Below, one piece after another: positions 5,126 through 32,308 of a stretch of DNA of 33,863 bases. Source of the stretch: Candidatus Moraniibacteriota bacterium (GTDB lineage: Bacteria; Patescibacteriota; Minisyncoccia; Moranbacterales; GWC2-37-73); NCBI GenBank assembly GCA_028715015.1, contig JAQTLF010000009.1:1-33863 (forward strand). Direction: 5' to 3'. A program made the translations under genes and the position numbers. Positions within the stretch are counted from its first letter, which is position 1. Each line of letters begins with the position of its first letter. The notes below the pieces were generated by a model that had not been told where the DNA came from, searched no databases, and saw only the letters and a program-made list of their open reading frames with translations.

Positions 5126-5250
5126 CATTAATTTCCAATTTCCAATTTCCAATTTCCAATCAATGACCAATTTCCAATGTTTAAATATTTAAAAAAATTT
5201 AATTATTGAAAATTCACTAAAAATTGAAAGTTGTGAATTGAAAATTTTTC

Positions 5251-8709: not shown

Positions 8710-11682
8710 CTACCTGAACAACCCTCTCGTCATCCAGCCAAACACTCCTGTCTGGAAAATATGTTTGAATTCTTGCAGTCTGGAAACTGCGTTTTGAGTT
8801 GTGGAGAGATAAACTCCATAAGTTGTGTCCTTAATTTTCATGAGTCCCATCTTCTGCAGAACTGTTTGCAAAAGTCCCACATCCTGGCCACGGGAACCCA
8901 GTGATAGATTTCTGGTAAATGTTTGTTCAGTTTTTTTGAGCCATTTTTGGGCTGATTTGAATTTTTTGGTAAGAGTGTTGGATTTCTTTTTGGCTTTGTG
9001 ATTTTTATGACTTTTATGATTATCGTCATTTGAAACAGTTGTTATAGTTGAAGTTGGAGCTGTTGTCGGAGCTATTACTGGAACTACAGCCTTGTCTTTG
9101 GTGGCGGCAAACTTGGTGGCATGGGTTGTTTGGAAACTGCAGATTCCACCTGTAACCGTGCAAGAAGTTTCTTGATTCCAAGTTGTTTCATTTTCTTTTT
9201 GATACAAAACTGTCAGAGTTTGACCCTTGTATGAATCCCCCACATTGATGTCGATGGTGATCGGTTTGGAAAAAGTCAGGTTGAGATTGGGAATTCCAAA
9301 TTTGATGGCTTTGATTGAATCCATGCTGGTCAGATTGTCAGCTGTGGTTTCTGCGGATATTATCTGAGTCAAATCCAGATTACCTCCGCCTGTTTTGGTC
9401 ATTTGGGTTTCTTGTGGAATGATGACTGAAACATTTTGAGTGTTAATAGTGTAGTTGGCATTAAAGGTAGCCTGGGTTGTCTGAGTCGGGTCGGTGCCAA
9501 TAATTGAAATTGCTCCAGCTGAATAGTCAGCAGGGATTTGATTCGTATTAGTGATTGTTTTGGTTTTTGAAATTGAAAAATTGATTATGCTGGAGTTGCC
9601 GACTGCGTCTGTGGCAATGAGAGTGTAGTCACCGACTGCGAAAATGTCGCTGCCTGAAGTGTAAGCGTTGCCATTAAGAGTGGCTGTGCCATCACTGAAA
9701 GTCGGATTTTGAGTCACATAATATGTTTGGTTGTTAGTAACACCAGTGATTGTTGGCGGGGTCGTGTCGATGGTGTATGTTTTGGATTTTATCGTTTCTG
9801 AATTTCCGTTTTTGTCTTGGGAGAAGAATTTGAGAGTAGTGGTTGTTGAAATTTCTATCGGAATTGAATATTGAGTTGAAGATGTGGTTGGGTCACTTCC
9901 ATCAATGGTGTAATATGTTTTGTCGCAGCCGACACCAGTGCTGTCATCGCATGTAAGCGTGATGTTTTGTGTGTTGTTGTATGTGCCTGTGTTTATGTTG
10001 GCGGTGGTGGTTGGGGCTGTTGAATCTTGAAATTCATAGGCGCCGATGTCCCAATTGGCGCCTGATTTTGGATTGCCTGCGTAGTCTGAAGTCAGCCCCA
10101 CATCAGTGCCAGCGTTGATGGCGGGAGAGGTGTTTTGGAGGGTGAAAATATTTGCACTGGAATTTGTAAAAAATGGATTTGCATTTTTACTATGCAATTC
10201 ATTTGTTGAATGATAAGTTAACCATGAAATATTATTTACCTCATCAGTACTATAAAATTTATTCTCATCAAGAGGATAATAAAGATTATAATCAAGAACA
10301 GTATACGCACTATTTGCAGCATTTGTTATTTCCCGTGGCTTACCTGCACCAGAAATAGTATTTTTAATTGTTACACTACCAGCTGACTTGCCACCACTCA
10401 TATATATATTTCCTCTTGTTGAGGGAGTTGTCACTGTATTGCCATTAAAGATATCCCCCACCGCATAACCATTGGCCCAACTGATGTTATTATAAAAAAT
10501 ATTGGTTCCCGTGCTCACATCACCAATTCCTGTCGTATAGTTGTGATGAGCAATACAATAATAACATTTTACGTTTGTAGCATTATTGTGAGGCAAAAAA
10601 CCAGCACCATCATATATAACATCAACTGTTCCATTGTAAGATGCTTCACTGCGCCAATACGTTATATTATTAACTGACATTGAAGCAAGAAAACCAATAT
10701 GCTTATTATTATCTGCCCTACAATTATTATAAGTTATATTGTACGATGTATCTTTTGCGATAAATCCCTGCGCAAAATTATCATTTGCTGTACAATTATT
10801 ATATGTAATGTCATGAGATGCTCCATATGCTGCGAAACCAGAATCTGTGCTATTTGTCATGCTACTATTACTCGCCGTTATGTTTGATGAATCAGTAAAG
10901 ATGAAACCTGCCCCCAATGAAGCTGTAACATTATCAATAATTCCAGTATTAACATTTGCCAGCGAAATGCCTGCTACTGACGGAACATTGGTTATGGTAA
11001 CGTTGGATCCAGAAACAGTAACAACGCCAGACAATGTTGAATTATTCACCGTTATAATTGAACCGTTTATCGACACACCAGGATTAATGATTGAATTTTG
11101 CAAAGTTATAGTGCTGTTATTTGCATTTGTAAGATTAATACCACTCCTGGATAATGTGCCGCTTATCAAATTAACATTGTCAAACAAAACATTGCTTAAT
11201 ATACTACTGGACCAAATATTATAACCATAGCCACCCATATTGCTGGCAATATCTTTAAATTGAAGGTTAGAACCAGCTTTTATTATCATGCCTATATTAG
11301 TTGATGCTGCCGTACCGATATAATTATAAGTAAGACCCTTGATTATAACGTTTGATTTAGCGTTCGTATCTATAAGATAACCAGAGGTAATTGCGATTAT
11401 AGGAACCTCGCCTGATACATTAGCGTAAGTAATTTCATTCCCAACAGCAGAACCACCCGAAGGCAAAGTTAGCATCGTTGAATAATTTCCACCTTGGCTA
11501 CTAAAAAGAACCGAATCTCCAGATGAAAAAGTGCATGAATTGACTTGTGCCATATTGAGCGCTGTCCCTGCAGCATTAGAACTTGTCGCATTTGCTTTAT
11601 TAGCACAAGTTACTGCACCATCAGCTCTTACATAATACGTCGCTGCACTCGCCTTTCCACTAAAACCAAAAAACAATCCCAA
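8710..11682 (-). CDS. large secreted surface protein: beta-helix repeats, chitobiase-C-like and Ig-like segments, C-terminal peptidoglycan-binding-like domain
   Basis: Signal peptide core continues upstream in the same frame (KKNSKISSLAFAILFLGLFFGFSGKASA); NITYNNCTANDN-type beta-helix repeats; TYYTIDGSDPTTSSTQY; C-term LSLGSRGQDVGLLQTVLQKMGL. The track start is a TTG inside the signal peptide. Confidence 0.8.
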   Translation of the reverse strand: MGLFFGFSGKASAATYYVRADGAVTCANKANATSSNAAGTALNMAQVNSCTFSSGDSVLFSSQGGNYSTMLTLPSGGSAVGNEITYANVSGEVPIIAITSGYLIDTNAKSNVIIKGLTYNYIGTAASTNIGMIIKAGSNLQFKDIASNMGGYGYNIWSSSILSNVLFDNVNLISGTLSRSGINLTNANNSTITLQNSIINPGVSINGSIITVNNSTLSGVVTVSGSNVTITNVPSVAGISLANVNTGIIDNVTASLGAGFIFTDSSNITASNSSMTNSTDSGFAAYGASHDITYNNCTANDNFAQGFIAKDTSYNITYNNCRADNNKHIGFLASMSVNNITYWRSEASYNGTVDVIYDGAGFLPHNNATNVKCYYCIAHHNYTTGIGDVSTGTNIFYNNISWANGYAVGDIFNGNTVTTPSTRGNIYMSGGKSAGSVTIKNTISGAGKPREITNAANSAYTVLDYNLYYPLDENKFYSTDEVNNISWLTYHSTNELHSKNANPFFTNSSANIFTLQNTSPAINAGTDVGLTSDYAGNPKSGANWDIGAYEFQDSTAPTTTANINTGTYNNTQNITLTCDDSTGVGCDKTYYTIDGSDPTTSSTQYSIPIEISTTTTLKFFSQDKNGNSETIKSKTYTIDTTPPTITGVTNNQTYYVTQNPTFSDGTATLNGNAYTSGSDIFAVGDYTLIATDAVGNSSIINFSISKTKTITNTNQIPADYSAGAISIIGTDPTQTTQATFNANYTINTQNVSVIIPQETQMTKTGGGNLDLTQIISAETTADNLTSMDSIKAIKFGIPNLNLTFSKPITIDINVGDSYKGQTLTVLYQKENETTWNQETSCTVTGGICSFQTTHATKFAATKDKAVVPVIAPTTAPTSTITTVSNDDNHKSHKNHKAKKKSNTLTKKFKSAQKWLKKTEQTFTRNLSLGSRGQDVGLLQTVLQKMGLMKIKDTTYGVYLSTTQNAVSRLQEFKHIFQTGVFGWMTRGLFR

Positions 11683-11745
11683 AAAGAGGATTGCGAATGC
11701 AAGACTGGAAATTTTTGAATTCTTTTTTAATCCGCAGGACTCATC

Positions 11746-11766
11746 GAGAGAGAGAGAGAGAGAGAG
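11746..11766. repeat. dinucleotide tract (GA)10G, minus strand C(TC)10
   Basis: Directly read; lies between ATG at 11774 and the signal-peptide frame of the surface protein. Confidence 0.95.
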
Positions 11767-11822
11767 CGTTTCATTAATTTTATTTTAAACATATTGTTTT
11801 CAAGTATTATTTTCCTACCTAA

Positions 11823-11831
11823 ATTATATCA
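11823..11831 (-). promoter_or_regulatory. extended -10 promoter element TGATATAAT of surface protein gene
   Basis: ~50 nt upstream of ATG at 11774; no good -35 seen. Confidence 0.45.
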
Positions 11832-14557: not shown

Positions 14558-14675
14558 AAATCTCAAATCCCAAATCTAAATTTCAAATAAAATCTCAAAT
14601 CTCAAATCCGAAATTTGAAACATTTGGATTTTGATCATTTATTTGACATTTGTCATTTTGATTTTGGATTTTCTT
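14558..14675. repeat. heptamer-like AAATCNC array plus opposed ATTTKGA array (inverted arms)
   Basis: AAATCTC AAATCCC AAATCTA ... AAATCTC AAATCTC AAATCCG, then ATTTGGATTTTGATC...ATTTTGGATTTT. Confidence 0.7.
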
Positions 14676-19770: not shown

Positions 19771-19779
19771 ATCTTGGTC

Positions 19780-19807
19780 ATGGAACATGGAACATGGAAC
19801 ATGGAAC
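19780..19807. repeat. heptamer array (ATGGAAC)4
   Basis: Directly read; same word at 20275-20288 (x2) and 23109-23136 (x4). Confidence 0.95.
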
Positions 19808-19861
19808 AAAAATTCCGAATCCGCATTGCATGCTATATGCTTTATGATCTATGTTATATGA

Positions 19862-20251: not shown

Positions 20252-20364
20252 AACTATTTCATGAGACACGTAACATGGAACATGGAACAAAAAATCTACT
20301 TTCTCACGATTTCTTTTTATAATTCCATTGCTCTATGTTCTATGCTGTATGTTCTATGATTTTT

Positions 20365-22530: not shown

Positions 22531-22549
22531 AAAGTAAGGTTTTAGTTTT

Positions 22550-22603
22550 TTAGCTTTTTAGCTTTTTAGGTAAAATGTATTTCCTAAGAAGCTGAGAAGC
22601 TAA
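22550..22603. repeat. inverted arms of octamer words (TTTTTAGC / AAGCTNAG) with 12 nt loop
   Basis: TTAGCTTTTTAGCTTTTTAGG (22550-22570) / CCTAAGAAGCTGAGAAGCTAA (22583-22603); 18 of 21 Watson-Crick plus 3 G.U. Confidence 0.85.
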
Positions 22604-23100: not shown

Positions 23101-23203
23101 AAATATTCATGAAACATGGAACATGGAACATGGAACAAAAATTCCGAGACCAAACCATGCGTATTTATTATTGCTCTATGATTTATGCTATATGTTCTAT
23201 GAT

Positions 23204-23590: not shown

Positions 23591-23700
23591 ATAATCAGGT
23601 TTCAGCTTTTTAGCTTTTTAGCTTTTTAGCTTTTTTTAAAAATTATATCTATTACATCTAAACAGCTAATAAGCCAATGCCTAATAAGCTGCCATTTTAT

Positions 23701-32124: not shown

Positions 32125-32269
32125 AACATTGACTACAAATTTACAAAATTATACAAAAATACAAAATTAGGGATTGCCAAAACTCAATATATATGATACA
32201 CTGAAACTTGTAATAAATCAATGTCATATTAGCATTCAAACATACGAGCATATAAACAATAATTTTTTG

Positions 32270-32308
32270 TTTAAATGTTTAAATGTTTAAATGTTTAAAT
32301 GTTTAAAT
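32270..32308. repeat. octamer array (TGTTTAAA)~5 directly upstream of rpmB
   Basis: TTTGTTTAAATGTTTAAATGTTTAAATGTTTAAATGTTTAAATTC. Confidence 0.9.

Follow-up and report, generated by a model that had tools for sequence, protein, structure and literature searches.

A candidate phase-variable surface protein gene with a CT-repeat leader in a Moranbacterales genome, and CT/GA tracts in its relatives

Background

Phase variation by simple sequence repeats (SSRs) is regarded as a hallmark of animal-associated bacteria. The SSR loci of Haemophilus influenzae and Neisseria often use tetra- or pentanucleotides, and in the lic genes ATGs in two frames leave two of the three repeat phases ON. The CPR bacteria (Patescibacteria) account for much of the diversity of bacteria and presumably live on other cells, and to our knowledge little is known about variation of their surfaces.

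Helicobacter pylori oipA has CT repeats in the signal-peptide region and encodes a phase-variable outer membrane protein (PMC10564699), and SabA is another CT-repeat phase-variable outer membrane protein of this species (PMC2715451). The locus described here resembles oipA, as well as sabA, babB and hopZ, in that a CT repeat lies in the 5' coding or signal-peptide region, where a change in unit number switches a surface protein. It shares with the Haemophilus and Neisseria loci a repeat within the 5' coding region, but the genes are unrelated. The first-pass annotation had likened it to the latter; the closest precedent is oipA. Within CPR genomes, a hypervariable repeat gene of Gracilibacterium BD1-5 has been described and slipped-strand mispairing discussed for it (PMC6851277); its 9-nt in-frame repeats change the length and composition of the protein and are not an ON/OFF frame switch. 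This gene is the nearest case; in the open-access literature (subscription papers were outside the scope) no description of ON/OFF switching by SSRs was found for CPR/Patescibacteria. In the first-pass annotation, too, it was not known as an established theme there. Switches of this kind are familiar, but the lineage looks new, and so, most of all, does their occurrence in the reverse transcriptases (RTs) of diversity-generating retroelements (DGRs).

Results and discussion

Anatomy of the locus

The window, that is, the whole stretch of DNA analysed, spans 33,863 nucleotides of a Candidatus Moraniibacteriota genome. On its minus strand the locus reads ...ATTA ATG AAA CG (CT)10 C GAT GAG TCC TGC GGA TTA AAA AAG..., with a dinucleotide tract between the nearest ATG and a long open body (Table 1). 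The tract, the frames and the intact body are direct observations. Between the TAA at 11787 and the stop that ends at 8710 the body frame is uninterrupted, and its earliest ATG, GTG or TTG is TTG 11682, within the hydrophobic core of the signal peptide. ATG 11774 lies 29 nt from the GAT codon, so that its frame reads MKRSLSLSLSMSPAD and then a stop. ATG 11792 shares this frame, and the predicted protein may therefore begin there. Both ATGs are off the body frame, and hence the signal-peptide segment is frame-shifted against both, at 10 units; they are joined to the body at 9 or 12. As the 2-nt unit is not divisible by three and lies between start and body, unit changes alter the frame.

Table 1. 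Features of the tract-bearing locus, in window coordinates
Feature	Position	Strand	Basis or remark
DinD, DNA damage-inducible protein D, Bro-N domain (upstream neighbour)	12672-11839	minus	NCBIfam NF008573 5e-107
Promoter-like extended -10, TGATATAAT	11831-11823	minus	sequence; directly 3' of dinD stop
Second, upstream ATG, MFKIKLMKRSL..., MFKIKLMKRSLSL...	11792-11790	minus	frame that of ATG 11774
ATG adjoining the tract, ATGAAACG(CT)n	11774-11772	minus	sequence; flanks shared with G002
C(TC)10 dinucleotide tract, proposed slipped-strand switch	11766-11746	minus	sequence; 21 nt, 10.5 units
Open body of the surface protein	11745-8713, stop 8712-8710	minus	1011 codons + stop
Post-tract segment encoding the signal peptide, DESCGLKKNSKISSLAFAILFLGLFFGFSGKASA followed by ATYY	11745-11644	minus	homologous signal peptides in L022, G010
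Right-handed parallel beta-helix	11448-10516	minus	Pfam Beta_helix E=3e-4; AlphaFold; Foldseek
CHB_HEX_C_1 / Fn3-associated domain	9993-9787	minus	Pfam 3e-17
C-terminal PG_binding_1-like domain	8892-8737	minus	Pfam 1.5e-4, 22.3 bits vs cut-off 23

These results leave the first-pass description of the locus unchanged. Direct reading confirms that no in-frame start precedes TTG 11682, the account of ATG 11774 followed by AAACG, C(TC)10 and an out-of-frame stop is exact, and recomputed frame arithmetic again joins start and body on loss of one unit or gain of two. The extended -10, placed earlier about 50 nt upstream, ends up 49 nt 5' of ATG 11774. It has promoter-like counterparts in G010, a genome of the same GTDB family but another genus (TGCTATAAT, in the corresponding position behind the upstream gene), and in G096 (TGTGGTATAAT, before the tract gene). 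No Shine-Dalgarno-like sequence is present at ATG 11774 or ATG 11792.

By the dinucleotide frequencies of the window, chance would give about 4e-9 runs of this kind in a window and about 1e-7 in a genome, and the tract is the only one of at least (CT)8 in the whole 1,056,066-base assembly. The window also has many short intergenic tandem arrays with units of 7-8 bp (CATGGAA, TTTTAGCT, TGTTTAAA and others), at 5130-5178, 14558-14671, 19779-19861, 20272-20358, 22540-22569, 23108-23137, 23600-23635 and 32268-32308.

The locus is probably an SSR contingency gene under translational phase variation, with the assembled 10-unit consensus in the OFF state. Transcription would start from the extended -10 downstream of dinD, and translation from ATG 11774 or 11792 would run through the CT tract. 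Slipped-strand mispairing would add or remove whole units, so that in one of the three repeat phases the leader would be in frame with the signal peptide (ON), and in the other two it would terminate within a few codons (OFF). The surface protein exported by ON cells would combine a beta-helix with Fn3-like and peptidoglycan-binding parts. That the tract slips in cells, that the gene is expressed and that expression depends on repeat phase are all inferred. The slipped-strand model accounts for the anatomy of the locus and its intact body, for the differing lengths among relatives and for the gene classes at which such tracts occur.

The encoded protein

The locus would work like oipA but is not a member of the oipA protein family. 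The protein falls outside the oipA-type Hop family, as Pfam gives Beta_helix, CHB_HEX_C_1 and PG_binding_1, and the window protein is a beta-helix peptidoglycan-binding protein and not a Hop beta-barrel. The setting differs from that of oipA as well: the bacterium is uncultured with a genome of ~1 Mb, and its relatives show the GA orientation too, and tracts in DGR RT genes. The AlphaFold model, which covers residues 1-570, has a mean pLDDT of 59, mostly above 80 (>70-80) across roughly residues 160-330, and shows a helix at residues 12-26, the site of the signal peptide, and the beta-helix. Foldseek matches, with low TM-scores, are glycan-active and adhesive beta-helices: AlgE epimerases (AlgE4), GH136 lacto-N-biosidases, PL6 lyases and pneumococcal PfbA. 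The C-terminal PG_binding_1-like domain is a probable wall attachment. By inference, the product is likely a wall-bound surface protein that binds or processes glycans; the surface role, itself inferred, is probably glycan binding or processing, or host-cell contact. IMG/VR contained no relative of the protein and no ATGAAANN(CT)8, and a viral origin is thus without evidence.

Homologues and leader-sharing genes

The close homologues found all carry a CT or GA tract between the start and the signal peptide. The first-pass annotation had proposed comparing tract lengths among homologues, and they do vary: CT10 in the window, CT9 in G010, and GA9 and GA3 in the lake MAG bin-188, with CT16 in the leader-sharing gene of G002. 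A close N-terminal homologue (51% identity) is present in just one of the 132 order genomes, G010, and reads ATGAAATC(CT)9 and then a signal peptide. This (CT)9 is OFF from both nearby ATGs, and one unit more or less brings one or the other in frame. In some relatives the ATGs occupy two frames, so that only one of the three phases is OFF, as in the lic genes.

The MAG bin-188 has two tandem homologues (contig CAJBHC010000069.1, 55-56% identity). Their ATGs are separated from the signal peptides by (GA)9 and (GA)3, and both genes are in frame. Further signal-peptide genes in this MAG carry (GA)10 and about (GA)12, and its tracts of at least (GA)7 are all (4/4) at such leaders, either on signal-peptide genes whose bodies differ or on a copy that is truncated. 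L022/L042, L039, L040 and L041 of bin-188 form a multigene family of exported proteins with a common GA-tract leader. Contig C91 begins inside a tract and C51 is a truncated copy, which suggests that these loci break assemblies and perhaps recombine.

G002, of the same genus as the window's genome, has a GDSL-lipase gene with the flanks of the window, ATGAAACG(CT)16CGAT. G010 and G065, from different GTDB families, have near-identical leader and signal-peptide DNA around (CT)9 and unrelated bodies. The leaders of G002 and of G010/G065 on differing bodies indicate that the tract leader is a module combined with different exported domains. In G096 a (CT)10 is followed by similar DNA. Starts are ordinary in more distant relatives (L048, L008), except that G173 (L139) has a short (GA)5, and there an in-frame ATG is absent although the tract is so short. 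The pattern ATGAAA-N0-8-(CT)7 matched, in 387 genomes of the class, only the window's genome (G000) and G010. This makes the exact leader a rarity, and the wider pattern is based on searches for tracts without the leader.

Dinucleotide tracts in relatives

The survey covered about 420 relatives and was blind to genes, with (CT)8 searched in 132 genomes of the order and (CT)9 in 290 of the phylum. Tracts were present in 25 and 34 genomes, respectively, while the control (AC)8 was found in 2 of the 132 order genomes, one of them probably contaminated. One tract per genome was inspected (n=53, with one eukaryotic-looking contig excluded). RT or avd genes of DGRs (Pfam RVT_1, bAvd) hold 31 of the 53, the N-termini of signal-peptide, pilin-like or membrane genes 10, and the junction of HsdS target-recognition domains (TRDs; Methylase_S) 2; the remaining 10 are unassigned. 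Signal-peptide placement was seen for 9 of 47 tracts, against 0.2-0.8% per strand at random positions (p~6e-8), a count that includes L062, probably a chance match. The association with these gene classes across the phylum is an observation, and most of them are of the types known from classical contingency genes. Eukaryotic contamination was considered as a link between the tracts and rejected, as only contig C19 of G074 has such a look. This contig (L077-L080) is rich in CT and AC microsatellites, is probably contamination and was excluded from the counts.

Among 15 surface-type tracts, 5 are ON and 10 OFF, where about 8 ON would be expected at random. Random draws from a population that switches could give such phases, and the OFF excess among them is not clearly beyond chance. 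In L118, L126 and L131 a GA/CT tract lies just 5' of the pilin-like N-terminal methylation motif, two of them in frame and one out. In the two HsdS genes (L054, and L114 near position 1500) a GA tract lies exactly between the TRDs and is in frame in both assemblies. These are candidate phase-variable restriction systems, like the SSR-switched type I restriction hsdS genes; this likeness concerns the relatives only and not the window.

Tracts in diversity-generating retroelements

DGR clade 2, which is restricted to Patescibacteria, was described by Roux et al. (PMC8144416), and its RT/avd gene type is the one that holds most tracts in the relatives. Frameshift, phase variation, dinucleotide or RT repeat switching is not mentioned in that paper. 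Fifteen RT genes have the tract mid-gene, with RT sequence on either side, and in 13 of them (L049, L057, L064, L071, L108, L110, L112, L113, L119, L127, L128, L133 and L134) the halves are in different frames (OFF); L084, L111 and L132 are in one frame (ON). Most of the GA/CT tracts are flanked by the FxSI/FxxxxH motif on one side and the GxPxGNLTSQ motif on the other. This arrangement suggests phase-variable DGRs.

In a second arrangement, avd and RT are divergent, and a single CT/GA tract marks the point where their 5' ends abut or overlap (L051, L053, L060, L063, L065, L069, L107, L109, L115, L121 and L122). Such a head-to-head tract could affect both genes. These loci were left out of the ON/OFF counts, because a GTG right after the GA tract, or an antisense ATG, could be the RT start. 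The window's own genome has a DGR-like locus (L135, G000:C29:5821-6432) with an RT, a divergent avd-like gene and Trp/Asn-rich repeat ORFs, and no long dinucleotide tract is present in it. An RT with a divergent avd-like gene is the type for which Roux et al. describe the clade restricted to Patescibacteria; together with the many genomes of ~0.4-1.5 Mb in the class and phylum, it points to a patescibacterial lineage.

We lean slightly towards a common, phylum-wide CT/GA contingency system in these ultra-small, presumably host-dependent bacteria that switches surface or pilin-like proteins, HsdS and, most often, DGR RT and Avd. Slippage would then toggle a hypermutation machine, with one mutator switching another.

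Alternative explanations

Two points weigh against the slipped-strand model: G173 lacks an in-frame ATG at its short (GA)5, and OFF phases are somewhat over-represented (surface tracts, 10 of 15; mid-RT tracts, 13 of 15), as some unknown reading of these frames would also predict. It is possible, though unlikely, that translation of the body always begins at a non-standard or internal start beyond the tract, which would then be neutral or a leader-peptide element. G010 and G065 do have an in-frame GTG where the hydrophobic segment begins, and the missing in-frame start at the short GA tract of G173, like the OFF excess among assemblies, fits such a start. In the window, however, no ATG, GTG or TTG lies between the tract and the hydrophobic core, and TTG 11682 would give no charged n-region; in bin-188 and in several pilin or transmembrane genes the ATG used is in frame and reading continues across the tract, and the mid-gene HsdS tracts are beyond explanation by an N-terminal start. 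The OFF excess in consensus sequences would also be explained by action at the RNA level, with transcriptional slippage or ribosomal frameshifting giving each cell a fixed minority of full-length product. This is the least credible of the alternatives, as CT and GA orientations at the same site conserve no single slippery codon and lengths span about 3 to 27 units.

An assembly or sequencing error, with a fixed in-frame number of units in the real gene, is very unlikely. The 21-nt tract fits well within short reads, and at this site independent assemblies have tracts of 7-16 units that are out of frame. Errors are common in dinucleotide runs, and mixtures are hidden in the consensus of a MAG, but even a wrong length would leave a long CT tract in the 5' coding region. 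Hardly more room, and if anything a little less, remains for a recent pseudogene, in which the gene is lost and the frame has yet to decay. Only the absence of an in-frame start from the assembly speaks for it, whereas ~1010 codons are free of stops and the tract is kept at the same site in homologues of 51-56% protein identity; an intact body of this length, although no start joins it, is unlike an old pseudogene. The reading proposed at the outset, a slipped-strand contingency locus that is currently OFF, is well supported by the homologue tracts, the flanks shared with G002 and the gene classes across the phylum, all without read or expression data.

Conclusions

In MAGs, surface genes in the OFF phase have no start, which makes mis-annotation easy, and in several relatives the tracts are points where contigs break. 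The survey makes DGR regulation directly testable in existing reads. Candidate SSR switching in reduced environmental genomes suggests an arms race with prokaryotic hosts or phages, similar to that of animal-associated bacteria.
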